Shown here one piece after another: positions 37,711-54,811 of a DNA stretch of 64,000 nt; position 1 is the first letter of the stretch; the number at the start of each line of letters is the position of its first letter. The notes beneath the pieces were generated by a model. The model saw nothing but the letters and a program-made list of their open reading frames with translations. It did no database searches and was not told the origin of the DNA. The DNA lies in assembly GCF_016597785.1 (NCBI RefSeq), contig NZ_JAENJG010000001.1, positions 806,001 through 870,000 on the forward strand. Direction: 5' to 3'. The position numbers and the translations under genes are program-made. This DNA is from Leucobacter sp. L43. GTDB lineage: Bacteria; Actinomycetota; Actinomycetes; Actinomycetales; Microbacteriaceae.

Positions 37711-37731
37711 GTCCCCCCACAGGGATTCGAA
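37711..37731. repeat. attL, copy of the tRNA 3' end
   Basis: 21 bp identical to 54791-54811, covering half of the T arm and the 3' acceptor strand. Read on the minus strand the flanking chromosomal bases continue the discriminator A with CCA, showing that the original tRNA gene encoded its CCA end. Confidence 0.88.
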
Positions 37732-37913
37732 ACCGGTGCATTACCTAGCGGATGCGGTCCTTGCCTTCTAGACCATTGTTTTTACGCGGTTTTTCGAAGC
37801 GCTACGATCACCCAGACTGCCTTTGGTTTTTACAAGTTGTTGCGGGAAAGTTGCGGACTGCTCGGCACTCCGGACCCATCGGCCCATTTCACATCTCGCT
37901 CGGACGTGACTGC

Positions 37914-37932
37914 TTACCCGTATTACGGGTAA
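37914..37932. repeat. palindrome with TTACCCG arms
   Basis: TTACCCGTATTACGGGTAA: 9-bp arms around one base. The same TTACCC core recurs in the hairpin 40 bp downstream and, inverted, at about 38048. Confidence 0.6.
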
Positions 37933-37972
37933 CGGGGATCAGTCACTACGCAACTGGCGAAAACTCGAGCCG

Positions 37973-38008
37973 ATGCCCGCTTACCCCCGATTCGGGGTAA
38001 GCGGGCAT
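37973..38008 (+). terminator. hairpin near attL
   Basis: Perfect 15-bp stem with a 6-nt loop, followed on the plus strand by TTTTG. Works as a terminator for plus-strand transcription leaving the left flank, or as a binding site. Confidence 0.6.
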
Positions 38009-38130
38009 TTTGTCGGAGTTTCGCCCATACACCACTGGCATTAGAGGGTTACCGCGTCCCGCGTTCCGTGACACCAGCGACAAACGACCGCGTTTCAAAC
38101 GCGAGATGAGAGTGCAAGCACCGCGCCCCC

Positions 38131-38319
38131 TTACGGGCGCACCTCGATTCGCGATGCTTCGATGATCGCGTCGATCTCTTCACGCTTATAGAGCGGTGCT
38201 CGTGAACCGTTGAGTCGGTAGAAAGGGAACCTGCGGTACTCGGAGCGGAGGTTCGCGAGGCTCTTCTCCGACAGCCCGGTCAGTTCCGAGAGCTTTTCAG
38301 GTGTCATCCATTCAGTCAT
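38131..38319 (-). CDS. excisionase-like helix-turn-helix protein
   Basis: 62 residues, a single MerR/AlpA-type HTH (MTPEKLSELTGLSEKSLANL). Small winged-helix proteins of this shape direct the integrase to excise or act as operon regulators. Its place near attL, at the opposite end from the integrase, fits a recombination directionality factor. No strong ribosome site; an internal ATG at residue 5 is an alternative start. Confidence 0.7.
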   Translation of the reverse strand: MTEWMTPEKLSELTGLSEKSLANLRSEYRRFPFYRLNGSRAPLYKREEIDAIIEASRIEVRP

Positions 38320-38395
38320 CAGTCCAGTATCGAGTTCCTTGACACTGAACTAAAGAACGGTAGCGCCCCCGATCCCGCGAGCTCTAGTGCTTCAC

Positions 38396-38854
38396 TTAGC
38401 TGCCGCTCGGACTGAACAAGTGGGTCTTGCCGAATACGTTGATGGGCACCTTCGGAAGTTCCATCTCGGGCTCGCCGATCAACCTGGTTTCCAGCTGCGC
38501 GACTGCTTTAACAATTGCCCCAACCACGTCCTCGACACTCGCTTCCCCATCCCCGTTTTCGGCGCTCATGGTCCCACCTAGAGCGTTAAGAAGTTCACGC
38601 GTCACAACCATGCGCGGATCGAGTGCTTCATCCAGGTAACGGAGCTTCTCTTCCAAGGACACGTCCTTCGTGTCTCCCGCGAAGAACGCGCGAGCATCGT
38701 TCGCCTGATCCTCGTTCAATTCCCATCGTTCGTTCTTGACGTGCTCGGGGTAACGCGCGCGAAGGAAGGCTCGCACGCGCCTACCTGGACGAGACTCACC
38801 CCCATGCCCAAGTTCTTGCGCGAGCTCGACGGGGGTCATTGGGTAAGTAGTCAT
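38396..38854 (-). CDS. element-borne protein with N-terminal DNA-binding-like region
   Basis: 152 residues. The first 60 (TPVELAQELGHGGESRPGRR and then an RAFLRARYPEH helix) look like the small DNA-binding region seen in several actinophage proteins; the rest is acidic and helical. No function assigned. Confidence 0.6.
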   Translation of the reverse strand: MTTYPMTPVELAQELGHGGESRPGRRVRAFLRARYPEHVKNERWELNEDQANDARAFFAGDTKDVSLEEKLRYLDEALDPRMVVTRELLNALGGTMSAENGDGEASVEDVVGAIVKAVAQLETRLIGEPEMELPKVPINVFGKTHLFSPSGS

Positions 38855-38916
38855 GCGATCAGAATAAACTCAATCCCGCGCTATCCTATTCGAACATACT
38901 TTCGAATGGAGGAGCG

Positions 38917-39201: not shown

Positions 39202-39314
39202 ATAGCTGAGTCCTTGGGGCGAGGTCAAGCCCCTTCGTGGACCGTATCCAGTGTTTCAAAATATTGATGTCGTCTCGGCTCTCCGTGTACCCCATACCTT
39301 TGACTGGGAACGAC

Positions 39315-39353
39315 AGAACCGCCCCTCCTGAGACTTCAGGGAGGGGCGGTTCT
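39315..39353. terminator. bidirectional terminator
   Basis: Perfect 14-bp stem with an 11-nt loop between the plus-strand small gene and the minus-strand gene ending at 39362. Confidence 0.75.
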
Positions 39354-39361
39354 CTTTCGGC

Positions 39362-39691
39362 TCAGGCTATGTCGGGATTGTTCTTGACGTACCGTTCAGC
39401 CTCGTCCTCGCTGATCGCAATGAGCCCACGCGGTGTGTGTGCGAGCGCGTTCAATGCGCGCACCCACGCCTTGCTCATTTCCGGCTCTCGACTTCCGGAG
39501 AAATGAAACGCCAGGGCCGCGAATGGCGATAGCCAGACGGACATGCGTCCGTCTCCTTGATCATGCGACTTCTGCCAACTGAGAAAGAAGCTCTCCTTCT
39601 TCTTTAGCTTCTGCCCGATTACGAACTGCAGGTGTGCGAGCAGTCGATCCTCGAACTCGTAGTGCCGACCACCGTGTATTAAGTTCCCCAT
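39362..39691 (-). CDS. DUF7882-like small protein (copy 1)
   Basis: 109 residues: a start MGNLIHGGRHYEFEDRLLAHLQFVIG, a Trp-containing middle with SVWLSP and a FHFSGSREPEMSKAWV block. It shares this plan with the next gene. Such proteins occur in many copies in Microbacteriaceae and are often mislabelled as ATP-dependent DNA ligase; no ligase motif is visible here. Function unknown. Confidence 0.65.
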   Translation of the reverse strand: MGNLIHGGRHYEFEDRLLAHLQFVIGQKLKKKESFFLSWQKSHDQGDGRMSVWLSPFAALAFHFSGSREPEMSKAWVRALNALAHTPRGLIAISEDEAERYVKNNPDIA

Positions 39692-39782
39692 CTGCGCAGT
39701 CTGTCAGCTACACCGGTTCACCGCGCGGGGTTGCCATATCTGGTGAAGTGTGGGGTCCGGATGCAATAGGGGTAGTCAGATC

Positions 39783-40133
39783 TCAGTTCGGCCTGAGATT
39801 ACCGGGATAGTGGGGGCCAGTCGCTTCGGCCACAGCCAGGTCGCCGTCTTCCGTCGTGACAATGAGTCCCGTTGTGGAGTTGGCCGACTCTCCGAGTCGC
39901 TGCAACCACTCCTTATTGATCGCCGGCACTCGGCTCCCCAGGAACTTGAACGTGATCGTGGTTTGCGGAGAAATCCAGATCGATGTCCGCCCGTCACCGA
40001 CGCTCACGCTGTCCTTCCACGACATCAAGAACGCTTCCTCGCGCATGAGCTTTTGCACGATGATGATCTGGAGATGCGAGAGCAGGCGATCCTCGAAGCG
40101 CGTGATCAGGCCGTCATACTGAATCGATCCCAT
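39783..40133 (-). CDS. DUF7882-like small protein (copy 2)
   Basis: 116 residues from the ATG at 40133. It has the same order of motifs as copy 1 (FEDRLLSHLQIIIVQKL, DGRTSIWISP, FKFLGSRVPAINKEWLQRLG), so the two are a diverged tandem pair. Function unknown. Confidence 0.65.
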   Translation of the reverse strand: MGSIQYDGLITRFEDRLLSHLQIIIVQKLMREEAFLMSWKDSVSVGDGRTSIWISPQTTITFKFLGSRVPAINKEWLQRLGESANSTTGLIVTTEDGDLAVAEATGPHYPGNLRPN

Positions 40134-40303
40134 TGGGTCACTGTCCTGTTCTACTTGCACGGCCACGGACGTTCCTCGACCACTCGTCCATCAAGTACAT
40201 GGAGCTTTGGTTCACCCAACAAGCCCTTGACAGCGGCGGCGGCGCATCCGAAACGACGAAAAGCCCCCTGCGGCATCCCGAAGGACACCACAGGGGGCGA
40301 AAC

Positions 40304-41185
40304 TCATATCAGTGGCGACGACATCTTCTGGTCAATCACGACCCCAGCACCGTCCTCGACGATTACCCACGAGATACCAAGTTCGTCGACCGTTTCCTGC
40401 GTGAGGAGTGTCGAGAGCGCCTGCGCAGCTCGTTGCCCCAGATCCTTACCTTCAGGGGTACTCCGGTCAACCTGCAACGTGAAGTACGCATCAGAGCCTT
40501 CTACACGGACGCCGACGAGATAGCCGCCCCACAGTGACGGATCGACAGCCAACAGCTCCTGATAACTGCTCTCCACGAACAGCGCGTATTTCAAGTCTTC
40601 ATCGAGCATTGCTGACTTCTCGTCGTCAGTAAGCCCAGGCTGGATCTCTGCCTCCTTCGTGGGCTCCGGCGTCTGAGTTTTTTCAGGCTTCTCCGCTTCC
40701 TCTGGCTCCTCAGAAACTCTCGGCGATTCCTTGGGCTCAGGTGTCGTCGTCGGCTTCGCAGCAGGTGTCTCCTCCGGCTTATCCGGGACGGACACCGATT
40801 CCGAAGTGATGGGCTTGATACCTGTTATGAGCGAAGAAGTCGTGCTGATTGAAGCAATTGTCGCCAACCCGGCAAGCACAAGGCCAGTCACGGCTAATCC
40901 CTTTGGCGCACGCTTCAGCAGAGCGAACCCGGCAACTGCCGCGGCACCAAGTCCAAGCAGAATCCCCAACACTGGAACCAAGCCCAGCAGGAAGGCGACA
41001 ATGCCGGCAACTAGCGCGGCTATGCCGAGACCCTTCAAAGAGTTGACGATCGGCGCGGTTTTCGGAGCGGCCGGAGCGCCGGGGGCAGCCTGCGGTGCCG
41101 CGTAAGCATCCGTCCAAGCATTTCCGTCCCACCATCGCTGACGACCAGAACCATCGTCGTACCAACCTGCAGGAGCGTTTGACAT
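40304..41185 (-). CDS. DUF2510 membrane protein
   Basis: 293 residues. The first 25 (AGWYDDGSGRQRWWDGNAWT) are the DUF2510 motif common in actinobacterial membrane proteins. Two or three hydrophobic segments follow, then a Pro/Glu/Lys/Thr-rich linker, and a soluble outer domain ending ISWVIVEDGAGVVIDQ. Probably membrane-anchored with the last domain outside. The start at 41185 is preferred because DUF2510 sits at the N terminus in relatives. Confidence 0.7.
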   Translation of the reverse strand: MSNAPAGWYDDGSGRQRWWDGNAWTDAYAAPQAAPGAPAAPKTAPIVNSLKGLGIAALVAGIVAFLLGLVPVLGILLGLGAAAVAGFALLKRAPKGLAVTGLVLAGLATIASISTTSSLITGIKPITSESVSVPDKPEETPAAKPTTTPEPKESPRVSEEPEEAEKPEKTQTPEPTKEAEIQPGLTDDEKSAMLDEDLKYALFVESSYQELLAVDPSLWGGYLVGVRVEGSDAYFTLQVDRSTPEGKDLGQRAAQALSTLLTQETVDELGISWVIVEDGAGVVIDQKMSSPLI

Positions 41186-41330
41186 CTGAATTCCCGATCT
41201 CACGAACAGTGCGGAGCTGCACCAAACTAAATAAGACTGCCACACGATTTACATGCCCCATCAGGTTCACCCGTGTTTTCACCCTTGGCATCACCTGTTT
41301 AGTTTCCCCAAGGACTGCGATGATTCTCGT

Positions 41331-41960
41331 GTGAAGAAACTTGCCGTCAGCGCCGCCGTGCTCCTCCTTGCTCTCACTGGTTGCACCGCTCAAGCGGAGA
41401 CATCGTCAGAAGCCGCACAGAACTCGGAGAATTCGGCCGAACCTACCATCGACCCCGGCCCTATCGAGCTCACGAAAGAAGAAGCAGGAGAACGGTATCT
41501 CCAGCTCGTGTGCCAAGGCAACACAGCGAGTGACGCGGTTATCAACGCTTTCAACGCCCACCTTGACGAGTTCAATGCAGGTGGCACACCGGAAGTTGAG
41601 ACGGTGAAAGCTGCTGCTGCGGAACTGGTCCGGGTGAACCGCATGCAGATCGAAACCATCGACGATGACTACTACGTATGGCCGGAAATCGTCGGTGATC
41701 AACTTCTCCACATTCGGGCAGAAACGATGACAGACCTTGCGGCGGATCAGGCTGTGATGAATGCTCAGACTTATGAAGAGGCGCTGCGCGTCACTTATAA
41801 CGAGGCCACCGCTGAACAGCAAGCAGCACCGCAGGAGATCAGATATCAGCTGGGCATCGACGCCGACACCACAAGCTCATGTGTGGGATATGAGACTGCC
41901 CTCGACGAGATTCATGCAGAGATGCTGGAGCGAAACGAGCAGCTCGCCGCGCAAGAGTAA
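41331..41960 (+). CDS. putative lipoprotein
   Basis: 209 residues. Signal peptide with lipobox LTGC (Cys18), then an acidic helical domain. GTG start; an alternative longer frame lacks the signal. Unknown function. A lipoprotein on a prophage-like element could alter the cell surface, for example by blocking phage adsorption, but nothing in the sequence proves that. Confidence 0.7.
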   Translation: MKKLAVSAAVLLLALTGCTAQAETSSEAAQNSENSAEPTIDPGPIELTKEEAGERYLQLVCQGNTASDAVINAFNAHLDEFNAGGTPEVETVKAAAAELVRVNRMQIETIDDDYYVWPEIVGDQLLHIRAETMTDLAADQAVMNAQTYEEALRVTYNEATAEQQAAPQEIRYQLGIDADTTSSCVGYETALDEIHAEMLERNEQLAAQE

Positions 41961-41983
41961 GAATAGCCTCCTGAAACACGAAT

Positions 41984-42019: not shown

Positions 42020-42024
42020 CATCG

Positions 42025-44694
42025 TTAGAAACCGGCTCGTCGCCGTTCCCTTGCCATCTGGTTCGAGTATTCGTCGATCTCCCGATTCGCTACTACTTGC
42101 ATCGTGCCGATCAGGGCACCCTTGGTGTCAACAAGGGTGAGCTCCGTCGGCGTCTCCGTATGGACGCGCTCGATGACTGTCGTCTGAGCGGCGATCGAAG
42201 GCGCGAAGCTGCCTCGTGTCATTCCCTCAGAGAACTGCCCCGCATTGATCTGCTTCAACAGCGCACGATGCTTCGACGCTTCGGAAGCGCGAATCACTTC
42301 CTCACCCTTCGACAGGCGCACCAGCACCGAATCAGAAGTCGTCGTCCCCTGGCCAAACACCGTCCCTGAGGCGATGCCACCACCGATACCGGGCACCATG
42401 CCGCCCGCAGCGAGCCCGATCGTACCGCCAACCGCGTAGCCAGACGCATACCCGACCGTGCCCCCGGACGCGTACTTCTCCTCGATACCTTGCGGGCTGA
42501 GAATCAGTGCATCACGAGTACGGATATCGACCGACACCGGCGACGGGATAGACCGCAACTTCGCAATGAAGTTATCGATCTGCGCCGAAGCCGCATCCGC
42601 ATTCGTCGAAACGTTTGCGTTCGTGTTCCCCGGGATGGCCTCAGCTGATGCCTTCACATTGTCGAGACCTTGCTGCACCTGAGCCGCAGTCGGAACACGG
42701 CGAGCGGCCCATGCCTCAGCATCAGCAGCATTCTCACCGAGCGCGATCCGCTGATCGATCAGTCCCTGCCGCGCAGAGTCCAAGATCGCATTCGCCTCAG
42801 ACTGCGCCCCACCAGCGTTCATAATCGACGCTGCTTGTTCACGGGCGCCATCCGCGATATCGAGCATCGCTGACTGCGTCTTACTTCCCGCTTCGGTGTA
42901 GATATCCAGTGAGGCAGTACCGCTCGCGAAGATATCGTTGAGCGCACGGATCTTGTCCTGCAAGTCGATCGCAGCACGGTCAGCATCGATCTGTGCCGAC
43001 CCGAAGTTGCGAATCTCATCAGCTACCTTCGAGATGCCCTCCGTCACCGTCGCCGCGACACCAGCAAGCTCTTCAAGGGTTTGGGTCGCCCCAGTGGTCG
43101 AACCCGCCGCCGCATCCTGCGACGATGCGACACCAGACAGTGCAAGATCGAGAAGCGTCGCGTTATCACTTGACTTCCCCATCTCTGTGGCCTGCGACAC
43201 CAGCTGATCCTTGAACGCTGGCATCATGTCGAGCATCTGCGACATGCGCTCATCCGTCAGCTGATACTCATCACGCAACATCGCAAGCGACGCGGCAGCG
43301 TCCGCGGCGTTCATCGAGCTCAGCGCGTCGCCCATCTTCGCAAACCGATCACGTGCCTTATCCGCCTGCGGGTCGAGCGCCAACAGATATGTACCGAGTG
43401 AGCCCATCCAACGCATGTCCGGTGCCCCCGAAACCTGATCGATGAAGTCCCCGAACTTCTCCGTCGCCTTCTCCGTGTTGATGTCGAAGCCATCGAAGAT
43501 GTTGTCAGTGCCCTTGAAGGCCTCCGCGACGATGTCCTTCGCTTTGCCCGACGTGACGAGAGCATTCTGAAGCTCTGTCGTGGTCAGGGTCGCATCCTCC
43601 ACGCTCTGCCGGAACTGATCAAGTGCGGCAGACGCAGCGAGCACGACCCCACCGATCGCGATTCCTTTACCGATGCCGCGCATAACCGCATCGAGTCGGC
43701 TCCCGGAATATCCGACATCGACGAGTGCGCTCTTAAACTCGAGCCACTTGGGAAGGGCCAGCATTGCAGCGCCAGCCCCCAGGGATGCAGCGCCGCCCAG
43801 CCCTGTTAGAACCGAGACGGTCGTTTTTACCGGGCCGGGGAGATCCTCGAATGCGCGCATCGCGTCCGCCGCCCAATTGAGAAGCTCTACGAGAGCGCCG
43901 CCACCGTTCGGGTCAACGAGCGGTGTAGCCAACTCTGCGGAGAAGTCACGCCAGGCCGCTTTCACGCGGTCCATCGATCCCTCGAAGGTGTTCTTGACGT
44001 TCTCCGCGGCACCCGCGTAAGTGTCGCTCATGCCTGCCGCCAGGGCATCGAGCGCCTGGCCTGCGTCGATGGTGCCCTTCGTGATGTCCTCTCGAATCTG
44101 TGCACCTGTCTTACCCATCTGGGAGCCGATTAGCTCAGCAGCATTCACGCCACGCCCACCGAACTCATTCAGATCCTCAGCCGTGATCTTTGCCGACGAC
44201 TGGATCTTCGACATCGTTGCGACGATGCCCTCAATGTCAGCGTTCCTGCCACCAGCAGCAGCCACCGCGTTCTGCACCGCATCGAGATACGGCACAACCT
44301 TCTTCGCCTCAATCCCGAACGCCAACATCTGCTGCTGCGCGTTGATAAATGTCGCCTTCGAGAAGGGACTATTCCTGGCGAAAGCGTCCAGCTTGTCCAT
44401 CTGCGCATTCGCAGCCGATGCCGACCCCAACAGCGTCGACAACGCAGCGCGAGTCGTCTGCTGAAGGGTGTTGTACTGAATCCCTGTGCTCAGAGCAGCA
44501 GCACCAATTCCAGTGACGGCAACACCGACTGCCGTTAGCCCGCTGCCCACCGTCGACCATGCCTCACGGGACGATTTCGCCGAATCCACGACCCGCGCCT
44601 TCGTCTCCCCGATCGCATCACGCGCACGGCCCATCCCCTGAACCAGGCCAGTCGCATCGGCTTGGAGCTTGATACTCACTACCCGATCAGCCAT
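42025..44694 (-). CDS. phage tail tape-measure protein
   Basis: 889 residues. The N-terminal 350 match the tape-measure core: repeated aligned helices, LNEFGGRGVNAAELIGSQMG and GEAFxGTxxAxxEN-like AAENVKNTFEGSMDRVKAAW. Hydrophobic segments and a Gly-rich stretch (YASGGTVGYASGYAVGG) lie further on. Such proteins set tail length and form part of the DNA exit path. At 889 residues it would specify a tail well over 100 nm by the usual rule of about 0.15 nm per residue. GGGGGAGG precedes the ATG. It overlaps the upstream gene by 8 nt. No other tail gene is present. Confidence 0.85.
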   Translation of the reverse strand: MADRVVSIKLQADATGLVQGMGRARDAIGETKARVVDSAKSSREAWSTVGSGLTAVGVAVTGIGAAALSTGIQYNTLQQTTRAALSTLLGSASAANAQMDKLDAFARNSPFSKATFINAQQQMLAFGIEAKKVVPYLDAVQNAVAAAGGRNADIEGIVATMSKIQSSAKITAEDLNEFGGRGVNAAELIGSQMGKTGAQIREDITKGTIDAGQALDALAAGMSDTYAGAAENVKNTFEGSMDRVKAAWRDFSAELATPLVDPNGGGALVELLNWAADAMRAFEDLPGPVKTTVSVLTGLGGAASLGAGAAMLALPKWLEFKSALVDVGYSGSRLDAVMRGIGKGIAIGGVVLAASAALDQFRQSVEDATLTTTELQNALVTSGKAKDIVAEAFKGTDNIFDGFDINTEKATEKFGDFIDQVSGAPDMRWMGSLGTYLLALDPQADKARDRFAKMGDALSSMNAADAAASLAMLRDEYQLTDERMSQMLDMMPAFKDQLVSQATEMGKSSDNATLLDLALSGVASSQDAAAGSTTGATQTLEELAGVAATVTEGISKVADEIRNFGSAQIDADRAAIDLQDKIRALNDIFASGTASLDIYTEAGSKTQSAMLDIADGAREQAASIMNAGGAQSEANAILDSARQGLIDQRIALGENAADAEAWAARRVPTAAQVQQGLDNVKASAEAIPGNTNANVSTNADAASAQIDNFIAKLRSIPSPVSVDIRTRDALILSPQGIEEKYASGGTVGYASGYAVGGTIGLAAGGMVPGIGGGIASGTVFGQGTTTSDSVLVRLSKGEEVIRASEASKHRALLKQINAGQFSEGMTRGSFAPSIAAQTTVIERVHTETPTELTLVDTKGALIGTMQVVANREIDEYSNQMARERRRAGF

Positions 44695-45106
44695 TGCGCA
44701 CCTCCCCCTCATAGAAGAACTCCCCCGAATACTCAGGCGCACCGTCCAGGAGCCCGCGATAAATCAGCACGAACGGCACAACATGGACCAGCGCTAACGG
44801 AAGACCCGCATCCGGGCAACGCTCCAGCAGCCAATCCTTGAAGCTCTGATACGCCGTAGACAGCACCACGCGTCGAGCGAGTGGCGGCAATCCCGCAACA
44901 GGCCCCAGAACCCCCTTCAGATCGGCCCCAGGATCGCGCAGCGCATCCGCGATCGCGTTCGTATGCTCCATGAAGTTCAAGCGCGAGATCCGCACTTGCT
45001 CACCGCCCACACCCACAAGCACCATGAACCCGTCAGGGGCAGTCGCCCCAAGGCCCTTCAACTCGGGGACCGCATCCACGATCCGATCGAACTCTTCTTG
45101 AGCCAT
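44687..45106 (-). CDS. protein preceding the tape measure, possible tail assembly chaperone
   Basis: 139 residues, GAGAGGAG ribosome site before the ATG at 45106. Its position immediately upstream of the tape measure is where siphophages encode tail assembly chaperones, and the overlap indicates coupling. No frameshift signal is obvious, and sequence alone does not identify it. Confidence 0.6.
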   Translation of the reverse strand: MAQEEFDRIVDAVPELKGLGATAPDGFMVLVGVGGEQVRISRLNFMEHTNAIADALRDPGADLKGVLGPVAGLPPLARRVVLSTAYQSFKDWLLERCPDAGLPLALVHVVPFVLIYRGLLDGAPEYSGEFFYEGEVRNG

Positions 45107-46065: not shown

Positions 46066-46088
46066 TTTGTACCAGGGTTTGTACCAGG
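46066..46088 (+). repeat. two tandem copies of TTTGTACCAGG
   Basis: Two 11-bp direct repeats 12 bp apart, 25-45 bp upstream of the -10 box at 46112. Position fits a regulator binding site. Confidence 0.6.
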
Positions 46089-46111
46089 TCGGGAGGGTGC
46101 CTTGGGCTGAG

Positions 46112-46117
46112 TATGGT
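46112..46117 (+). promoter_or_regulatory. -10 box TATGGT, leaderless start
   Basis: TATGGT ends 6 nt before the ATG at 46124. Confidence 0.5.
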
Positions 46118-46123
46118 TGGGGC

Positions 46124-46866: not shown

Positions 46867-47391
46867 ATGGACTTCGCCGGACTTGCCGCGCTTCTTACCG
46901 CTGTCACCGCTGTCACCGCGCTCGTTGCAAACCTGCTTACCTCACGTGCTCGGGCTCGTCGCCTGAAGGATGCTCTAGAAATGGGGAAAGAGCTGGGCGC
47001 GAACGATCCTGTGCAAGTTCTCCTGAGCGATGTCGCTCTCGAGCACGCGGCCAGAATCTATGCAGTGCAGAAGTACGGTAGCTATGTGCTGCCAGCGACA
47101 CTGAGTGGCGTCCTGAGTCTCGTGTCGATAGTTCTAAGCGTGTCGACACCCACCGCAACCCAGTGGTTTGTAGATATTGGATGGGATAGATGGACCGGGA
47201 ACGACATGATTATCCTTGGCGCGATGTTGACGGGAATTCTAGGAATTCTGCTCGGTGCTCTTGCTGTTTTCCAGGTCATATACCTCGCGATTAAGACAGA
47301 CAAAGCCGCGAAAGATGCGAGGCTCAGAGCCAAGACCGCACGACCGGACGTGCTACCGGTGCGTCGTCGTTCCTTGCTCGGACGCCGCTAA
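46867..47391 (+). CDS. three-span membrane protein, cargo gene
   Basis: 174 residues with hydrophobic segments near 4-25, 75-93 and 112-140, and a basic C-terminal tail. Follows the previous gene by 83 nt on the same strand and shares its transcription. No family recognised. Confidence 0.65.
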   Translation: MDFAGLAALLTAVTAVTALVANLLTSRARARRLKDALEMGKELGANDPVQVLLSDVALEHAARIYAVQKYGSYVLPATLSGVLSLVSIVLSVSTPTATQWFVDIGWDRWTGNDMIILGAMLTGILGILLGALAVFQVIYLAIKTDKAAKDARLRAKTARPDVLPVRRRSLLGRR

Positions 47392-47430: not shown

Positions 47431-47437
47431 TGTCAGG

Positions 47438-48094
47438 TCACGCCTGGATGGCGTACCCACCATCGATCATGCGTTCGGCTTGTGATGGGGTGAGGCGCGC
47501 GGTGTCGTCTTTGCGATGTCCGCCTACGTCCTTGAGGAAGGTGACGGTGACGCTGTTGTCGACGTGCTTCCGGTCGGAGGGCTTGTAGCCATCAGCTAGG
47601 GTCAGCTCCTTGCTGGGGTAGTCGCTGCGTCGTTTGGCTGCCCGTGTAATGTGCGCGTTCAAGTCGACCAGGCCGACGATGCGGTCTCCGGCGATGATGC
47701 CGCTCACGTTCGCGTCGAGTCCTTCGATTGTGGCTCCCTGTTTTGCGAGGTCGCGGATGCGGGTGCTGTAGGCCGCGACGCGGGTGTCGTGCCCGTTGGC
47801 GAGCTTCACGGCTTCCGCGATGAGGCTGTCGATCTTCAGAAGCTTCTTGCTGAGATCGTCGGAGATGTTCGGCAGGTCGTTCTCAACGGCTTTGCGGATC
47901 TCTGTGAGCTCGTCGAGCTTGGCTTGGTGCTCTGCTTCGGCCTCTCTACGTTCGCGTCCTTCGGTCTGGAGTTCTGCGATCTGTACCGCACTCTCAGCCT
48001 GTTGCAACTCTGCCGCGGTAACGGTGGCGTCGCCGTCTGCGATGCGCTTTCGGAGGTCTGCGAGGGCCTGTTCGGGTGTGGTCGTCGTGGTCAT
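47438..48094 (-). CDS. coiled-coil protein with phage-type C-terminal motif
   Basis: 218 residues from the ATG at 48094 (AAAGGGG upstream). The first 90 residues are a Glu/Lys-rich coiled coil. The end, FLKDVGGHRKDDTARLTPSQ and then AERMIDGGYA, resembles a short motif (GHxxGDxxxL...AExLIxxGxA) found in phage structural or connector proteins. May be a small virion or scaffold component; unsure. Confidence 0.6.
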   Translation of the reverse strand: MTTTTTPEQALADLRKRIADGDATVTAAELQQAESAVQIAELQTEGRERREAEAEHQAKLDELTEIRKAVENDLPNISDDLSKKLLKIDSLIAEAVKLANGHDTRVAAYSTRIRDLAKQGATIEGLDANVSGIIAGDRIVGLVDLNAHITRAAKRRSDYPSKELTLADGYKPSDRKHVDNSVTVTFLKDVGGHRKDDTARLTPSQAERMIDGGYAIQA

Positions 48095-48119
48095 GCGTTT
48101 CCCCTTTCTGGGATGAGAA

Positions 48120-48168: not shown

Positions 48169-48360
48169 TCAGGTCTTGTCGCGTTGTTGCGCCTCGTATG
48201 CGTCGCAGAGGTCGTGGACCTGGTCGACGATGTTTCGAGCGTCGCGGTAGTGGAGCAGCAGGAACACGGGGCCGCTGTAGAGCCGGATCATGGGCGTTGT
48301 ACCGTCGTCTTCGACCCATTCGACGTGGCGCACGGAGGGCTTGCCGAATCTGTTGGTCAT
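48169..48360 (-). CDS. small protein of unknown function
   Basis: 63 residues. ATGA overlap with the upstream gene supports it. Contains PVFLLLHYRDARNIVDQVHD. No family recognised. Last gene of the leftward operon. Confidence 0.6.
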   Translation of the reverse strand: MTNRFGKPSVRHVEWVEDDGTTPMIRLYSGPVFLLLHYRDARNIVDQVHDLCDAYEAQQRDKT

Positions 48361-48587
48361 GCGCGCGTTCCGTCCTTCTCAGCCGCTTCAATCCGGTGGA
48401 AGTTATTGATGCTGGTGGCGAAGTCGACGAGTCCGTTCCTATCCACGTCCATTGCTCGCACGTCCCCGTTCGCGAGCAGCGCCCATGCGACTACTGGGCT
48501 TGAGAAAGTGCCACCTTCCTTGTTCGAGTAGAAGACGTTCCATGCGCCTCCTGGGATGATCTGCACGATGTGTTCCGGGTCATTCAC
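48357..48587 (-). CDS. small protein of unknown function
   Basis: 76 residues, starting MNDPEHIVQIIPGGAWNVFY. Overlaps genes on both sides (4 nt and 8 nt), typical of a compact phage operon. The pattern of paired strands suggests a small beta-rich fold. No function known. Confidence 0.6.
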   Translation of the reverse strand: MNDPEHIVQIIPGGAWNVFYSNKEGGTFSSPVVAWALLANGDVRAMDVDRNGLVDFATSINNFHRIEAAEKDGTRA

Positions 48588-48771: not shown

Positions 48772-48774
48772 CGA

Positions 48775-50469
48775 CTAGCTCCCCTCTCGAGCTGTGCCGC
48801 CGCAGCTTGAGCAGCGGGATCCGATAGTGGTTCCGTGTTCGCAGTAACCGGGGTCGTCCCAGCCGACGAACAGATCGCTTTCGTCCTGAGGTTGCCCGTT
48901 TTTGTTCCACGCGTTCCCCGCTTCCCCGCCGTATTGGGGCTTTGGCGGGTTAGGCGGGTATGGCGGGGTGTCGTTGCGGGCAATCTCAGGACGAGCAAGC
49001 TTCCAGATCGTCACCTTTTCCTTGTTCGCTGAGCCGAGGTCTTCGGCTACCCACCCCGACTTGCGGAGAGCTGGAGCGTTGCGCTTCAGAATCCCGGTGA
49101 TTGCTCGAGCGTTCTTGGGCCAGTCCCGGGGTGGGCGCCATCCGTCCTGCATGTCACTGAGCACGGTGTCGAGAAGTTCGGCGGCGCTTCCCTCGAACTC
49201 GTTCACGCTGCTCATGAGCGCCACGATGAACGGATCACTCGCAAGCGAATCACCAGCTAGGGTCGCGGCCTGCGACATGTAGCGGCTCAGGCCATCGGTC
49301 GCGTTGAGCTTGTCCAGAGCAGCGAGAATGTGCGCGAAGTCAGCCATGCGAGGTGCACTGTCAAGACGGACATATGAAAGCTGCCCCGCCATACCCGCCA
49401 CCTGATCCAGAAGGACACCGACGAGCCGCGGATACACCCGCTCCCAGCGCTCGGATAGTTCCCGCTCACTGATTCGCTGATGCTCGGGAATCGTCGCGAG
49501 AGACACGGTGACGAGGCGCTCAGCAAGGTCGCCGCGCATTCCTGCGAGGTCGATACCATTCAGCAGAATCGCTCGTCGGAACGAGAAGACGCTCAAGCCG
49601 GAGTCGGTGTACAACTGACGGCGAACATCTCCGTCACCCGTCACAGCTCGGCAAAGTGTGTCGCTAAGCCAGTCAGGTACAGTGCTCAAATTGTCGAGCC
49701 CTACGACCCACGATCCCGACGCTGCTGTAACCCATCCGTCTGCATCACGAGGCGGTTTGCGAAGCGGCACTGGTGATGGGTCGGCAAGCGTCACAAGAGC
49801 TTTCGACGCAGACGACTTACCCGTTCCCTGCTCACCGAAAAGCGCCATGACCGGGTGCGGGATAGCAGGGGCACCCAGAGCGGCAACAAGCCATGCCAAC
49901 ACCAGCGGCCGATCAACGGCGGCAACGTTCAAGACTGACCAGAGATCGTCCAAGCTCCCGCCACGCTCAGGTGTCGGCATCGGGCCAGTGAGTGCGGTTC
50001 GCCGGAACAGGACGGGTACGTCACGGCCGACAATCGCCCACCCCGTCGCGTCGATCCGGATGGCCTCTTCGGCCACCGTTCCCAGATCGATCCAGATAAC
50101 ACCCTTGCTTTCAGCAACCCGCAGATGTACCTCTTGCGGGTCACTCTCTTGAGCTTCGCCCTCGAGTACGAGCATGGCGTCCGCGAGAGCTTGTTGCGGG
50201 GCGATCCTTCCCGTCTTCTTCCGGTAGGTGGAGCTGAGTTCAGCACGCAGTGAAGCTCGGCCTCCTCGCAGCATCCGAACCACATGCCCGCCTGGTCTTG
50301 GAATAGCGAACGCTTCTCCTTCAGGAGTGCTTGCAAAGTCGTACCGTTCCATAGCGAGGTCCACGAGGATCGCCGCCGCGGACTTCTTCTCCGCTTCCTC
50401 GACACTGATTAGGTTCGGATCGGTTCGTTCATGCGGCTCGCTCTCCACCGCTTTCAACATTGCTGTCAC
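48775..50469 (-). CDS. P-loop ATPase, probable replicative helicase of the element
   Basis: 564 residues. Walker A is GEQGTGKSS at 212-220 and a Walker B-like SWVVGLDNLS lies about 40 residues later; the arrangement matches phage DUF927/SF3-like ATPases used in replication. The C terminus carries a four-cysteine zinc knuckle (CEHGTTIGSRCSSCGG). GGAGG precedes the GTG start. With the stand-alone primase-polymerase domain it probably forms a split primase-helicase. Confidence 0.78.
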   Translation of the reverse strand: MTAMLKAVESEPHERTDPNLISVEEAEKKSAAAILVDLAMERYDFASTPEGEAFAIPRPGGHVVRMLRGGRASLRAELSSTYRKKTGRIAPQQALADAMLVLEGEAQESDPQEVHLRVAESKGVIWIDLGTVAEEAIRIDATGWAIVGRDVPVLFRRTALTGPMPTPERGGSLDDLWSVLNVAAVDRPLVLAWLVAALGAPAIPHPVMALFGEQGTGKSSASKALVTLADPSPVPLRKPPRDADGWVTAASGSWVVGLDNLSTVPDWLSDTLCRAVTGDGDVRRQLYTDSGLSVFSFRRAILLNGIDLAGMRGDLAERLVTVSLATIPEHQRISERELSERWERVYPRLVGVLLDQVAGMAGQLSYVRLDSAPRMADFAHILAALDKLNATDGLSRYMSQAATLAGDSLASDPFIVALMSSVNEFEGSAAELLDTVLSDMQDGWRPPRDWPKNARAITGILKRNAPALRKSGWVAEDLGSANKEKVTIWKLARPEIARNDTPPYPPNPPKPQYGGEAGNAWNKNGQPQDESDLFVGWDDPGYCEHGTTIGSRCSSCGGTAREGS

Positions 50470-50893
50470 GTGATGTTCCTCCAGACGCCGACGTATTGTC
50501 GGCCACGAGTAAGTGCTTGGTATTCAGTTGTCGATCGGAGAGGGCTGCGTAGAGCTCTGCTTCGATCCGGTCCCACGTCGCCGCATCGGCTTGCTGTAGA
50601 CCCGCGTCGAGGCGCTTCAGAATGCGCTCTCGCCGTTGGTCCTTCGTGAGGTGAGCTTCTGCCCAGTACACGTCCACAAGGCGCGTCAGGCGGTCGATTT
50701 CGCCTTGATGGGACGTCTGTCTTATTTCGTCGATCTCGTGCTGCCGAGACTCGCGCCCCTCGAAGTAGCCGAAGTAGTAGAAGTCGACTACAGATGGCGG
50801 AAGGGCCCCTGCTTGGATCTCTCCAGACACGAGCCCTTCCAGCCATCGAGTTAGGTGCTTCTCGGCGACTTCGCTAATTTTCAGTCGGGGCAT
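50429..50893 (-). CDS. helical protein of unknown function
   Basis: 154 residues. Overlaps the ATPase start by 41 nt and the upstream HTH gene by 20 nt. Charged, helical, with a short aromatic stretch VVDFYYFGYFEGRESRQHEI. No family recognised. Confidence 0.6.
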   Translation of the reverse strand: MPRLKISEVAEKHLTRWLEGLVSGEIQAGALPPSVVDFYYFGYFEGRESRQHEIDEIRQTSHQGEIDRLTRLVDVYWAEAHLTKDQRRERILKRLDAGLQQADAATWDRIEAELYAALSDRQLNTKHLLVADNTSASGGTSRDSNVESGGERAA

Positions 50894-51080
50894 GCGACCC
50901 CCGGTGTTCAGCGATCGCTTTACTCACGCGGTACATGTAGCTCGGGGCGCTGTGTTTCCCGGATTCGAGCAACTCAATGAATGCGGCCGGGAGTCCGGTG
51001 AGCTCTGCCACCTCCTGAATATCAAGGTCGGCAATCTCGCGCTGCTCGCGGAGATTCGTGCTAAATGTCGTGATCGTCAT
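50874..51080 (-). CDS. small XRE-like helix-turn-helix protein
   Basis: 68 residues. LREQREIADLDIQEVAELTG followed by LPAAFIELLESGKHS is a Cro/C1-type HTH. GGAGG precedes the ATG. May be a second regulator in the lytic operon. Confidence 0.65.
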   Translation of the reverse strand: MTITTFSTNLREQREIADLDIQEVAELTGLPAAFIELLESGKHSAPSYMYRVSKAIAEHRGSHAPTEN

Positions 51081-51331
51081 GCGAATGCCTCCTCTCGTTC
51101 CCGCACGGGTTCTGGGATCTGCTCGGACTTGTCTCTCCGAAGCGAGTCGAAGATGTTCTCGCAGACGGGGCACGTCTTGAGCTCGCGATGTGCGACCTCG
51201 TGGCCCGGGATCGCCTGCGCCCCCTGGTGATCAGGTACCACCATCTCTCCGCAGAGCGCCTTCGCCGGGGAACCGTCGACGACGCCGCGCAAGATGTCCG
51301 TCTTCCGGATGTAGTGGTTCAGGTCAGGCAT
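51077..51331 (-). CDS. DUF3039-like zinc protein
   Basis: 84 residues. ALCGE and CPVC spaced as a small zinc-binding site, with HYIRKTDILRGVVDGSPAKA before it; this matches DUF3039-like proteins of actinophages and actinobacteria. ATGA overlap with the next gene. Function unknown. Confidence 0.6.
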   Translation of the reverse strand: MPDLNHYIRKTDILRGVVDGSPAKALCGEMVVPDHQGAQAIPGHEVAHRELKTCPVCENIFDSLRRDKSEQIPEPVREREEAFA

Positions 51332-51893
51332 GATCGGTGACCTCCCCCGCTACACGAGACTTGAAGGCTTCGAACTTTGCTTCGGCGGTGTCGATCGCAG
51401 CGCGAAGGGTTCGGAAGAACTCACGCGATTCCTCAGCTTCTACCTGCCAGGAGAACGATTCGGTGATATCGAGAAGTACTTTGCCATCGAAGATCACGTG
51501 GTCAGTCCGAAGACGACCCGGCGCGCTACCTGCCACGCCTTCCTCCTGATGAAACCCGTCCTCGACATGGCTTGGACCGTCGTCTACCGTGCACCAGTCG
51601 TAGGCCGGGCAACGTTGCGGCGCACGCTCCGTAGTGTCGCAAACCGCCGTGGCTGCGTCGACTCCACCGCACAGTTCGAAAACCTGCACCTCAAGCACGT
51701 CGCAGATCATCGAGAGCTCGTCGATCGTGAATGCGCTGTTGCCGGCCAATTTCCGTCGCAAGGTGTCGACGTTCATGTTGCTCATCACGGCAAGCGTTCC
51801 AAGCTCGTGTCCCCACGCTTTGATTGCTTCCTGAAGCCCCTGTACGAGGTGTTCCGAGCTCAGCTTCACAGCGAGATCGATCGCGTTAGTCAT
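51324..51893 (-). CDS. XRE HTH fused to a DUF6907-like domain
   Basis: 189 residues. The first 80 hold an XRE-type HTH (VMSNMNVDTLRRKLAGNSAF and IDELSMICDVLEVQVFEL). The second half begins CPAYDWCTVDDG and ends in a helix EESREFFRTLRAAIDTAEA, resembling the DUF6907 module. Start at 51893 overlaps the upstream gene as ATGA. Confidence 0.65.
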   Translation of the reverse strand: MTNAIDLAVKLSSEHLVQGLQEAIKAWGHELGTLAVMSNMNVDTLRRKLAGNSAFTIDELSMICDVLEVQVFELCGGVDAATAVCDTTERAPQRCPAYDWCTVDDGPSHVEDGFHQEEGVAGSAPGRLRTDHVIFDGKVLLDITESFSWQVEAEESREFFRTLRAAIDTAEAKFEAFKSRVAGEVTDHA

Positions 51894-52186
51894 GCCGCGA
51901 CCGCCTTCGAGCTGACGATCTCGCACCAGGAGGTGACCATGATGATGGCCTCCGCGAACGCTCGCGCCTCATCAAGGGTGAGGTCACGGCGGTGAGTTGA
52001 GACGGTGTCGATCTCCCATCGACCGTCCGCCTCGTCGAGCATTGCGGTCACGGACCAGGTGTCGGTGTACTTCGTGACCCCCTGGTGAAGCGTTGGCGCT
52101 GCCTCGTCATGCTTATCGAGCTGACAGCCTGCGATCGCGCAGGTTCCGGAGTTGTATACTGCTGGTATTGCTGACAAAATAGACAC
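51890..52186 (-). CDS. DUF6907-like protein
   Basis: 98 residues from the GTG at 52186, with AAGGGGA 7 nt upstream. CAIAGCQLDKHDE and the late EARAFAEAIIMVTSWCE mirror the second half of the neighbouring HTH fusion, so the two look like a duplicated domain. Function unknown. Confidence 0.6.
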   Translation of the reverse strand: MSILSAIPAVYNSGTCAIAGCQLDKHDEAAPTLHQGVTKYTDTWSVTAMLDEADGRWEIDTVSTHRRDLTLDEARAFAEAIIMVTSWCEIVSSKAVAA

Positions 52187-52208
52187 AACGATTCCCCTTC
52201 CAAGGGAT

Positions 52209-52613
52209 TCAGGAACCCTCACTGCGCGACTGTTTGGCGACATACGCAGTGGGGTTCTTTTCTTCTTGTGTGAACACTCGCCATCCCTGACGACTCTTCG
52301 TGGGCCTGATCACGCCGCTTCTTGCGAGGTGGTTGATCAGTTCTGAAGCAGCGTCTGCGGTGAAGAACACTGTCGTGTTGACGTTGTCTTCATCGGTGCT
52401 GACGATCTTTAGCTTCTTAATTCCTCGCATCATGCGACGGAGGACTTCTTCTTGTGTGGGGTCGCGATAAGTCTGAGTCGAGGGAAGCTGACCTTTCTCG
52501 GCGACGTGTCGTCGTCGAAGACGGTCGACAAGTTCTGCTTCTTGCTCACTACCCTCCCGGTGCTGCACCAGGTTCTGGGTAAAATCGCGATGCCCGTGAG
52601 GGGCATCATTCAC
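52209..52613 (-). CDS. element regulator-like protein of unknown function
   Basis: 134 residues from the GTG at 52613, which shares a base with the stop of the upstream HTH gene (TAGTG). The second half (VFFTADAASELINHLARSGV and IRPTKSRQGWRVFT) looks like a winged-helix fold. No family recognised. Confidence 0.6.
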   Translation of the reverse strand: MNDAPHGHRDFTQNLVQHREGSEQEAELVDRLRRRHVAEKGQLPSTQTYRDPTQEEVLRRMMRGIKKLKIVSTDEDNVNTTVFFTADAASELINHLARSGVIRPTKSRQGWRVFTQEEKNPTAYVAKQSRSEGS

Positions 52614-52843
52614 TAGGCCACCTTCACCGTGCTGTCGCGCTTCTTCGATTCGAGCCACGCAACGACATCAGCCCATTCGTAGATAACGACCTTGGCGCTC
52701 GGCTTCATGTACCTGGGGCCTTCGCCCTTGAAGCGAAGCTGCGCAAGATTTCCCGTTGTCATTCCAGGAATCTTCGCGGCGACTTCTTTCGGGCTGAGGT
52801 AGGCAGCAGCCTGCAATTCGATCAGCTCTGTTCGTTGAGACAT
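52613..52843 (-). CDS. excisionase-type HTH, first gene of the leftward operon
   Basis: 76 residues: a MerR/AlpA-like HTH (YLSPKEVAAKIPGMTTGNLA, then GPRYMKPSAKVVIY and EWADVVAWLE), the usual form of HTH_17 excisionases. GGAGGAG precedes the ATG. It is the first gene behind the operators, where a Cro-like or Xis protein is expected. Confidence 0.75.
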   Translation of the reverse strand: MSQRTELIELQAAAYLSPKEVAAKIPGMTTGNLAQLRFKGEGPRYMKPSAKVVIYEWADVVAWLESKKRDSTVKVA

Positions 52844-52926
52844 CTTCTCCTCCGTCCTGTTCCTTGAGGGAACAATATAACCGTAGCACACTGTTCCCTG
52901 AAGGAACAGCGCGTAGAGTGGTGTCT
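52844..52926. promoter_or_regulatory. divergent immunity-switch region
   Basis: 83 bp between the repressor and the excisionase-like gene. Two 17-bp operators, TGTTCCTTGAGGGAACA at 52858-52874 and TGTTCCCTGAAGGAACA at 52892-52908, share the same 6-bp arms with centres 34 bp apart. TAGAGT at 52914-52919 ends 7 nt before the repressor ATG (leaderless). On the minus strand TATATT abuts the first operator. Binding of the repressor at both would block the leftward operon and control its own gene. Confidence 0.8.
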
Positions 52927-53643
52927 ATGGCCAAGCAAATCGAAGACAGCTCGTGGGGCAATAAGATCTCGTTGCGCATTGCGCAGCGACTCAGGGCACT
53001 GCGTGAGAACGAAGGGATGTCCGCGCAGGATCTTGCAAACGCCACGGAAGCTTTGGGACACCCCATTTCCAGGCAGGTGATTGCAAACATCGAGAGTGGC
53101 CGCAAAGCCTCGATCGGCGTAGCCGAGTTGTTCATATTGGCCCATTGCTTCGGGGTCAATCCGATGTATTTACTCTTCGACATGCACGAGCAGGACGAAC
53201 CTTATGAAATCGTTCCTGATCTCGAGGTGCCGCAATGGGAGGCATACAAATGGGCGGCGCTGCGAACCAACATTATTAATAGCTACCTATCTACTTCTGA
53301 CTTTGACGAATACCGAACAGCCATTAACATGCGCGACAGCTACGAACGCAGTCAGCGGTCGGCGAAGAAGTTGATCGCCGACATTTCGGCGCTGCGAGAG
53401 ACGGGCAAGCTTTGGATGGACAAACTGGATCGGGGAAAGAAACGACTTCCCGACGAAGAGGTTGAAGCGCTAATCGCCGAGTTCTCCGCTCAGCTTGAGT
53501 CGGTGCAAAAGGATGTGGATGCCAGCGAAAAGATGCTCGACTCCCTGGAAGTTTCGTACGACGACTCGTGGTTCGATCCCGGTCCGGTGTTCCAGAAGTA
53601 CCTGGATGAGCGCTGGTACCGGATGAGTGACCCCCATGGGTAG
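52927..53643 (+). CDS. XRE-family repressor of the element
   Basis: 238 residues. Residues 18-60 are a Cro/C1-type HTH (IAQRLRALRENEGMSAQDLA then SRQVIANIESGRKASI). The rest is a long helical region without a LexA-like peptidase, so induction is not by RecA-driven self-cleavage. It likely binds the two operators upstream. The integrase start lies 17 nt inside its 3' end. Confidence 0.83.
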   Translation: MAKQIEDSSWGNKISLRIAQRLRALRENEGMSAQDLANATEALGHPISRQVIANIESGRKASIGVAELFILAHCFGVNPMYLLFDMHEQDEPYEIVPDLEVPQWEAYKWAALRTNIINSYLSTSDFDEYRTAINMRDSYERSQRSAKKLIADISALRETGKLWMDKLDRGKKRLPDEEVEALIAEFSAQLESVQKDVDASEKMLDSLEVSYDDSWFDPGPVFQKYLDERWYRMSDPHG

Positions 53644-54754
53644 CGTCTATCCCTACAACGTAAAGGGACGAGCAAAGCCTCTTTACCGCATCGTTTACCG
53701 ACGCCCTGACCACAAGCAAACCTCGGAGTCTGGCTTCACGCGCAAGGGTGACGCAGAACGGCGTCTCGCTGAAGTCGAGGTATCGAAACATCGTGGGGAG
53801 TACATCGCGCCGGCAGACGGCAAAGCAACGATCGGCGAGCTTGGCCGGAAGTGGCTTTCGGGCAAAGAGTCGAGTCTGAAGGCGTCGAGCTATGCTCCGC
53901 TGGAAACCGCGTGGCGCTTATACGTCGAGCCCGTCTGGGGCGACTACCCAGTGTCGAGCATTCGGCATTCAGATGTGCAGGCCTGGGTGTCTGGCATCAA
54001 GAAGAGCCCGACAGTCGTCATTCGCGCGCATGGCGTTCTGGCTGGCATTCTCGATGTCGCCGGTCGTGATCGGCGCGTCAGCGCGAACGCGGCTCGAGGC
54101 GTTGACCTTCCCCGCAAGCAGTCGAGCAGAGAACGTCGATACTTGACCCACTCTCAGTTGTGGGCGGTGGCGAACAACGCTGGCCGTCGTCGTGTGCTCG
54201 TGCTCGTGCTGGGTTACTGCGGTCTCCGCTGGGGAGAGGCCATTGGGCTCCGCGTCTCTGATCTTGACTTCAACCGTCGACGCATCAGCATCACGCGCAA
54301 CGCGGTCGAAGTAGGCGGGACGATTCACGAGGGAACACCGAAGACACACGAGGCAAGGCACGTGTACGTCCCCGCGACGATCTCTGAGCTGCTTGAGTCG
54401 CATTGTGAGGGGAAGGCCAAAGACGCGCTCGTGTTCCCGAATTTGTATGGCAATTTCGAGCGCAAGACGTACTTCGATTCGAAGAAATCTACATGGTGGG
54501 CGAACGCGCTGAATCGAGCGGGTGCCGAGAAGATGACAATTCATGATCTCCGCCACACCGCAGCGTCGTTGGCCGTGTCTGCTGGTGCGAACGTGAAAGC
54601 GTTGCAGCGGATGCTGGGGCACGCGAGTGCGGCGATGACGCTCGATGTGTACGCGGATCTGTTCGACAGTGACCTTGAGGACGTTGCGGGAGACCTAGAT
54701 CAGGCCATTAGTTCGCAAGTTGTTGCGGGAATGTTGCGACCAAAGGCTGATTAA
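53627..54754 (+). CDS. int: tyrosine integrase
   Basis: 375 residues. An N-terminal arm-binding region, a SAM-like core-binding domain (70-160), and the catalytic domain with Arg201 (GLRWGEA), Lys239, His306 and Arg309 (HDLRH), His332 (LGHASAAMT) and nucleophile Tyr342. All catalytic residues are intact. It ends 36 bp from attR and reads in the repressor transcript, so it is made in the lysogen. GTG at 53627 or ATG at 53636 may be the start. Confidence 0.94.
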   Translation: MTPMGSVYPYNVKGRAKPLYRIVYRRPDHKQTSESGFTRKGDAERRLAEVEVSKHRGEYIAPADGKATIGELGRKWLSGKESSLKASSYAPLETAWRLYVEPVWGDYPVSSIRHSDVQAWVSGIKKSPTVVIRAHGVLAGILDVAGRDRRVSANAARGVDLPRKQSSRERRYLTHSQLWAVANNAGRRRVLVLVLGYCGLRWGEAIGLRVSDLDFNRRRISITRNAVEVGGTIHEGTPKTHEARHVYVPATISELLESHCEGKAKDALVFPNLYGNFERKTYFDSKKSTWWANALNRAGAEKMTIHDLRHTAASLAVSAGANVKALQRMLGHASAAMTLDVYADLFDSDLEDVAGDLDQAISSQVVAGMLRPKAD

Positions 54755-54790
54755 CCGCGGTAGTCGTTGAAATGACGCCGATTATGTACA

Positions 54791-54811
54791 GTCCCCCCAC
54801 AGGGATTCGAA
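54791..54811. repeat. attR, tRNA 3' end
   Basis: Second copy of the 21-bp core, forming the 3' end of the intact tRNA. Beyond it the element continues with CTG instead of CCA. Confidence 0.88.

Follow-up and report, generated by a model that had tools for sequence, protein, structure and literature searches.

Can a phage satellite live from its helper while making a single part of the helper's tail? The question is raised by a 17.1-kb island at positions 37711–54811 of a 64-kb stretch of the Leucobacter sp. L43 genome (contig NZ_JAENJG010000001.1), referred to here as the window. The island carries a complete gene for a tape measure protein (TMP) and no other recognized tail gene. The answer favored here, held with somewhat better than even confidence, is that the island is a phage satellite whose TMP takes the place of the helper's own during tail assembly, the result being chimeric tails of similar length. 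The satellite nature of the island is likely, and TMP substitution is the best mechanism for it. As far as sequence comparison can tell, the analysis establishes an intact element, a recurring gene set, a partner gene that was found nowhere but next to these TMPs, a TMP that has moved between satellites and phages, and selection that maintains it.

An island with one tail gene

The island is delimited by att repeats found in a scripted search for repeats. The 21-bp sequence GTCCCCCCACAGGGATTCGAA occurs exactly at 37711 and 54791, a spacing of 17,080, and the repeat extends to 24 bp if one mismatch is allowed. The right copy forms the 3' end of a tRNA-Leu (TAA) gene, the only tRNA found in the window. 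GC content is about 0.56–0.61 within the island and 0.62–0.74 outside, with mixed values at the borders. The integrase frame is open, the genes overlap as an operon, and the TMP frame has no internal stop. The original prediction had described exact att ends with a paired tRNA, an intact integrase, and overlapping genes in intact frames, and each of these features was recovered.

From the tRNA, the gene order runs from a tyrosine integrase through a helix-turn-helix (HTH) repressor and an excisionase-like gene into an overlapping minus-strand operon of small genes. It continues with a primase/helicase-type gene, a coiled-coil-like protein, two plus-strand cargo genes, a primase-polymerase, a gene for a protein of 139 amino acids (aa), and the TMP. 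Past the TMP lie a lipoprotein-like gene and then the DUF cargo genes (Table 1). The element's proteins were scanned with profile collections, 18 against both Pfam and PHROGs and 4 more against one of them. The repressor, excisionase-like, replication, and cargo genes and the 889-residue TMP of the original prediction are present, and, again as predicted, the scans gave no match to a family of terminase, portal, capsid, baseplate, or lysis proteins. The TMP is the sole tail-family match. The sole further virion-type match is to a scaffold-like family (phrog_206), and it counts as weak because it is of a low-complexity type. The excisionase role is assigned because of the size and position of the gene. 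The partner gene directly upstream of the TMP (44687–45106) had been overlooked in the original gene set.

The integration site is occupied elsewhere as well. An element in another species (genome G405) sits at the same tRNA-Leu with the same flanking genes and an integrase 97% identical to that of the window, and in a third species (G406) the matched flank stretches are only 3.8 kb apart, so the window element is more than a chance occurrence. The original prediction suggested looking for the same gene set at the same tRNA in other strains; the G405 element shares the site and a near-identical integrase, yet much of its other content differs.

Table 1. Features of the island and its insertion site, in window coordinates
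Feature	Position	Strand	Evidence
Left att repeat	37711..37731		Exact 21-bp repeat; 24 bp when one mismatch is allowed
Gene near left end, no assigned family	38396..38854	-	Pfam/PHROGs scans
DUF7882 protein, cargo	39362..39691	-	PF25355 1.7e-32; 84% identical to gene beside G405 prophage
DUF7882 protein, cargo	39783..40166	-	PF25355 3.9e-32
DUF2510 protein, cargo	40304..41245	-	PF10708 2.9e-7
Very acidic lipoprotein-like gene, 209 aa, candidate superinfection-exclusion gene	41331..41960	+	Lipobox-like start by eye; net charge -27; no family
TMP, 889 aa, intact	42025..44694	-	TMP_3 2.3e-23; phrog_12798 4.6e-23
Partner gene, 139 aa, family A, tail-assembly-chaperone position	44687..45106	-	Overlaps TMP start by 8 bp
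Primase-polymerase N-terminal type protein	45199..45837	-	phrog_8643 1.6e-50
Cargo gene	46067..46783	+	No family match
Cargo gene	46867..47391	+	No family match
Coiled-coil-like protein, weakly head-scaffold-like	47438..48100	-	phrog_206 9.1e-4 only
Small gene	48357..48587	-	phrog_8653 1.6e-7
Primase/helicase-type replication protein	48775..50469	-	31% to Microbacterium phage Zeta1847 helicase, 3e-33; weak phrog_2249 0.0024
Small marker gene beside replication gene	50429..50893	-	Alignment A2; pointed to further elements
Small HTH regulator	50874..51083	-	PF13413 4.8e-6
DUF3039 protein	51077..51331	-	PF11238 5.7e-10
HTH regulator	51324..51893	-	phrog_4583 1.1e-5; kin in several other elements
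Operon gene	51890..52243	-	79% identical in G405 element
Operon gene	52209..52658	-	47% identical in G404 element
Excisionase-like small gene	52613..52846	-	phrog_2528 1.3e-5 (function-unknown family); 82% identical in G405 element
HTH repressor, start uncertain	52864..53643	+	PF01381 3e-8; phrog_3 1.7e-11
Tyrosine integrase, 375 aa, open frame	53627..54754	+	PF00589 3.1e-22; phrog_1 9.1e-65
Right att repeat, tRNA 3' end	54791..54811		Exact repeat
tRNA-Leu (TAA), integration target	54791..54865	-	Sole tRNA found in window

Sister elements, the partner gene, and the TMP

Of 54 Leucobacter genomes, 20 gave a match in a TMP search, that of the window among them. Seven of the 54, again counting the window's, hold a small integrated element in which the TMP is the only recognized tail gene (a lone-TMP element): E1 (the window), E2 (Leucobacter salsicius, G208), E3 (the G405 element above), E4 (L. 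chromiireducens, G403), E5 (G400), E6 (G437:C2), and E7 (G404). Att repeats, sought only within chosen stretches, bound five of the seven (E1, 17.1 kb; E3, 15.5 kb; E4, 15.3 kb; E5, 17.6 kb; and E6, 18.8 kb), while E2 stops at a contig end and E7 is divided over two contigs. The other TMP loci that were read belong to prophages that have tail modules, except for a C-terminal fragment in G415 and a weaker one in G420. These loci were listed with a custom gene caller and read by eye, all save one (G437:C3); the caller, also used for the genes of the relatives, works from GC frame and can pick antisense reading frames, and many gene identities were judged by eye. The C-terminal fragments (L073/L074, G415:C4:125917-126633; L087, G420:C10 near 202260) lie near a transporter-type gene region resembling the insertion site of E5.

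Some of the sisters add a virion-type gene. A terminase small subunit was recognized in E2, E6, and E7 (phrog_1496; 7.5e-16, 3.5e-13, and 1.3e-13) and a scaffold-like protein in E3 and E4 (phrog_233; 8.4e-10 and 4e-8), while PHROGs recognized neither in E5. For a further 67 proteins of E2–E7, none of the 25 families listed, out of 32, is a head, tail, or lysis family. A terminase small subunit or scaffold-like gene is a hallmark of satellites, and in this the sister elements resemble them. Cargo genes of the DUF7882 and DUF2510-like types occur together in E1, in E3, and beside a prophage of G405 (window 39362–41245; L072; L159).

All seven elements have a small gene directly upstream of the TMP. 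It overlaps or abuts the TMP gene in six of them and is separated from it by a gap of about 100 bp in E6. Two families can be distinguished, family A (127–139 aa) in E1–E3 and family B (about 70–81 aa) in E4–E7. Across the 54 Leucobacter genomes, family B was found only in E4–E7 and family A only in E1–E3, plus two borderline matches (9.3e-4 and 9.9e-4) inside long frames; both families are absent also from the prophages with close TMPs. Among 398 Microbacteriaceae genomes, family A was found in E1, E2, and one stop-containing frame (7.8e-4) when the best 10 candidates per genome were considered, and family B gave three matches near 1e-3 (up to 9.7e-4), all inside longer frames. Both family models were built from TMP-adjacent genes; adjacency is therefore true by construction, and the informative part is the absence of the families elsewhere. 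The window's partner gene found no match in phages. Because of its position upstream of the TMP, it probably acts as an assembly chaperone of the element's TMP.

The TMPs themselves argue for replacement over a change of tail length. All six whole satellite TMPs are close in length to their best prophage match. The E1 protein is 50% identical over its full length to the 845-aa TMP of a prophage in G376, to which the E2 protein (814 aa) is 57% identical. The TMPs of E3 (939 aa) and E6 (925 aa) are 48% and 59% identical to the 910-aa TMP of the G437:C4 prophage, the latter being the best match of E6 and co-resident with it in the G437 genome. The E5 TMP (988 aa) is 52% identical to a 947-aa TMP in G417, and that of E4 (1029 aa) is 77% identical to the same protein, only across the N-terminal 464 residues. 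Having satellite and prophage TMPs of near-equal lengths means that tail-length change is not supported. The original proposal of a satellite that reprograms tail length thus divides into two parts. The satellite reading is supported by seven lone-TMP elements, no parent prophage among those compared, open TMP frames, and purifying selection; tail-length reprogramming is rejected, and a better fit is a satellite TMP that replaces the helper's with little change in length.

In an 18-row TMP tree, which leaves aside the TMPs of G398b, G432, G422, and G437:C3, satellite and prophage proteins interleave, and well-supported branches force at least three changes of label. Between E4 and E7, the ratio of nonsynonymous to synonymous change (dN/dS) is 0.25 over 771 codons of the TMP and 0.05 over 125 codons, and it is 0.11 for the partner gene. 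By this codon-level measure, the TMP and its partner are under purifying selection between the two elements. The interleaved tree and the low dN/dS together indicate that the TMP has moved between satellites and phages and has been kept by selection. The window TMP matched 18 of 50,697 phage records, none covering 80% of the query, and its search against IMG/VR and genome contigs confirmed no relatives.

The proteins of E1–E7 were compared with 13 Leucobacter prophage regions (blastp, 1e-5), a set that leaves aside the prophages of G398, G417, G430, G432, and G433; of the structural genes, only the TMP is shared. The other matches, to an excisionase-like gene, part of a primase, DUF7882, small proteins, and one ParB-like protein, are scattered over different prophages. 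In the set, the G376 prophage has major head, scaffold, protease, minor tail, and endolysin matches together with terminase, and the G437:C4 prophage has a terminase match; the others were judged by a terminase match or by eye, and three (G415C9, G437C3, and G376C9) entered without a gene-by-gene reading. The original prediction held that a full-length prophage with the element's genes beside capsid and terminase genes would speak against a satellite. Such a prophage was looked for in these 13 regions, and a simple deletion form of one of them is rejected, as the TMP is the sole shared structural gene.

Weighing TMP substitution against its rivals

In the favored reading, the element would excise and replicate with its own genes, and a helper siphophage would supply heads, tails, lysis, and probably packaging. 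The element would bring its own TMP together with the small dedicated partner, its probable assembly chaperone. The satellite TMP would then take the place of the helper TMP in tails of about the same length, making them chimeric. The likeliest benefit would be a channel adapted to the entry of satellite DNA, or escape from factors that act on the helper TMP, such as tail inhibitors or superinfection exclusion. The need for a helper, the partner's role as a chaperone, the chimeric tails, and the benefit are all steps that we infer.

Several points weigh against this reading. The case is built from sequence and not from an induced element, an excised circle, a particle, or a helper. E1 has no recognized terminase small subunit, and its scaffold match is weak. 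The window's genome has no terminase by phrog_9, only a weak match (6.8e-4) by phrog_2, and no second TMP relative, which leaves it without a detected resident helper. In E3 and E4 the scaffold-like genes match phrog_233, as does the scaffold of the G376 prophage, so the TMP is not the sole distant link to phages. The E3 integrase is interrupted by an in-frame stop, which means that not every sister element is active. The partner gene has no PHROG or Pfam match and no relative in the PDB, where a sequence search gave two matches, both with E above 1; its predicted fold is of low confidence (pLDDT 53) and has no PDB match at E 0.001. The chaperone reading comes from position, and with adjacency fixed by the way families A and B were built, only their absence elsewhere serves as a test. 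Finally, the three label changes in the TMP tree need not equal three captures, as one gain and two losses would also produce them and the tree gives no direction.

The alternative that the island is a prophage remnant, a temperate phage that lost its morphogenesis block and left the TMP behind, draws on the high share of cryptic, decaying prophage elements that a survey of actinobacteria describes in its accessible portion (PMC10023795). The C-terminal TMP remnant in G415, the weaker fragment in G420, and the stop within the E3 integrase fit such decay. Against this, seven elements keep the same single tail gene with its partner, their TMPs come from several lineages, and purifying selection acts on them; no parent prophage with the element's other genes was found among the 13 regions compared. 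For the window element, neither broken frames nor random leftover genes turned up, nor, among those regions, a parent prophage with the same gene set. Decay is thus an unlikely account of the island, and the presence of similar elements in related species suggests a repeated strategy instead.

The TMP might also be a weapon, made during infection to poison or misdirect the tail assembly of an infecting phage as a decoy defense. Defenses of satellites and prophages are known to act on tail assembly, as the available texts on Tai (PMC11364771) and Rta (PMC12987554) report, and a full-length protein close to phage TMPs would suit the role. An incomplete or shortened protein could serve as a decoy equally well, however, and the terminase and scaffold-like genes of the sisters point to particle making. 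A PADLOC scan of nine window proteins, not including the TMP, and of one E2 protein gave only two weak matches (8.5e-4 and 3.6e-3). A decoy is accordingly judged improbable. Least probable, and a long shot, is an exclusion module, in which the acidic lipoprotein would block entry of phages with certain TMPs while the element's own TMP type is spared; this idea is compatible with TMP substitution. Ltp-type lipoproteins of streptococcal phages are reported, in the part of the source available, to block superinfection via the TMP (PMC3952083), and lipoprotein-like genes lie near the TMP in E1, E2, and the G376 prophage (L031, 12429-12833). In the window TMP, the last 40 residues carry a net charge of 0, unlike the positively charged site described for phage P008, and the likeness to Ltp is one of description. 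In E1 the lipoprotein-like gene is convergent with the TMP.

Known satellites and the wider actinobacteria

The closest parallel to TMP substitution is found in the PLE satellites of Vibrio cholerae. According to the accessible text of PMC12987554, PLEs encode their own TMP and TAC (with BhuB in PLE11) and form chimeric tails with phage ICP1, deletion of the PLE tmp gene lowers transfer by 96–99.9%, and the PLE11 TMP is incorporated into satellite particles. The PLE11 TMP is 20% identical to that of ICP1 and differs by 95 aa in length, and the tails are 10 nm shorter (PMC12987554, same portion). The window element likewise has its own TMP and a small gene in the tail-chaperone position while lacking most other structural parts. 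In both cases the TMP is not far in length from its counterpart, the helper's for PLEs and the best prophage match's for the Leucobacter elements. There are also differences. The Leucobacter elements belong to another phylum, no BhuB was found, their helpers are presumed to be siphophages, and, wherever a match runs over the full length, their TMPs are 48–59% identical to those of prophages. The window integrase is a tyrosine recombinase, whereas PLEs use a serine recombinase. What is proposed by analogy is a way of working like PLE tail substitution; kinship to PLEs is not claimed.

Other satellites share fewer features with the island. Satellites span 7–20 kb in the available text of PMC13376191, and the window element falls in that range with att repeats and its own integrase, regulation, and replication genes, while the full head, tail, packaging, and lysis set is lacking in the PHROG and Pfam scans. 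The cf-PICIs are also integrated islands, some with putative tmp genes according to the Extended Data Fig. 10 legend of PMC12987554. They form capsids and use helper tails, in contrast to the window element, in which no capsid, portal, or terminase large subunit was detected. Size, integrase, divergent regulator, and replication genes resemble those of SaPI and other PICI elements, as does the terminase small subunit or scaffold-like gene of the sisters; the difference is that the TMP is the main virion gene and that the window element has no firmly recognized packaging or capsid-redirecting gene. The Streptomyces satellites MulchRoom and MiniFlayer have actinobacterial hosts too, but the accessible text describes them as encoding capsid and packaging genes and parasitizing virulent phages, and the words "tape measure" are absent from its main text as available (PMC10690885). 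The text of PMC12987554 contains no word starting with actinobacter, and no description of TMP-carrying actinobacterial satellites was found among the listed matches in open-licence papers. A survey of actinobacterial prophages notes, in its accessible portion, that small elements could be satellites (PMC10023795).

The small marker gene beside the replication gene extends the group in another direction, with 13 matches in 12 of the 54 Leucobacter genomes; those outside G432 and G423 could be assigned to elements. One marker-found island is 9.5 kb long, has 78-bp att repeats at a tRNA-Phe, and carries a terminase large subunit with no other virion genes seen by eye (L113, G405:C2:91069-100553). 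Two att-bounded islands of 8.1 kb (L114, G422:C63:22216-30310; L115, G418:C9:4226-12322) carry a major head protein and replication genes, with no tail genes by eye. A fourth, att-bounded and 9.2 kb long, in Leucobacter sp. cx-328 (G428), has no obvious virion gene by eye. Because marker-found islands carry a terminase large subunit, a major head protein, or no obvious virion gene, a modular pool of satellites is suggested.

The replication protein of E2–E5 and two kin led to 34 loci, every one in genera named as actinobacterial. PHROGs identified the large downstream genes as TMPs in Nocardia arizonensis, N. acidivorans, a Rhodococcus (L135), and Phytohabitans maris. These loci in Nocardia, Rhodococcus, and Phytohabitans (L134, L142, L135, and L145) have a related RecA-like replication gene and are likely lone-TMP islands. 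The 23 other proteins of the N. arizonensis, N. acidivorans, and L135 loci gave no head or tail family, and a clear repeat is present only at the N. arizonensis island (23 bp, 14.0 kb). These loci are leads, candidates for lone-TMP islands in other genera. Rhodococcus sp. 1163 (L146) was rejected as an example; the same locus holds, besides its TMP, a minor head protein with an ADP-ribosyltransferase-type C-terminal match (L146:10589-12418).

A broader proposal, tentative and given somewhat less than an even chance, is that these elements form a widespread, undescribed class of actinobacterial satellites that evolved independently of PLEs and carry a tail ruler with a satellite-specific partner. 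The class might draw on a modular pool in which integrase-regulator-replication cores each combine with one interchangeable virion module, be it a TMP with its partner, a capsid protein, or a terminase, and swapping the TMP would give the satellite its own DNA-entry channel.

Hijacking of capsids and packaging by satellites was known before, while satellite-made tape measures were, by the available text of PMC12987554, first demonstrated in 2026, for a single family in Vibrio. If actinobacteria do the same, with seven elements in Leucobacter and further leads in Nocardia and Rhodococcus, tail substitution would become a strategy of general reach. Having E6 and a matched prophage in one genome offers a comparative system for asking why a satellite would replace the tail ruler of a phage with one of nearly the same length.

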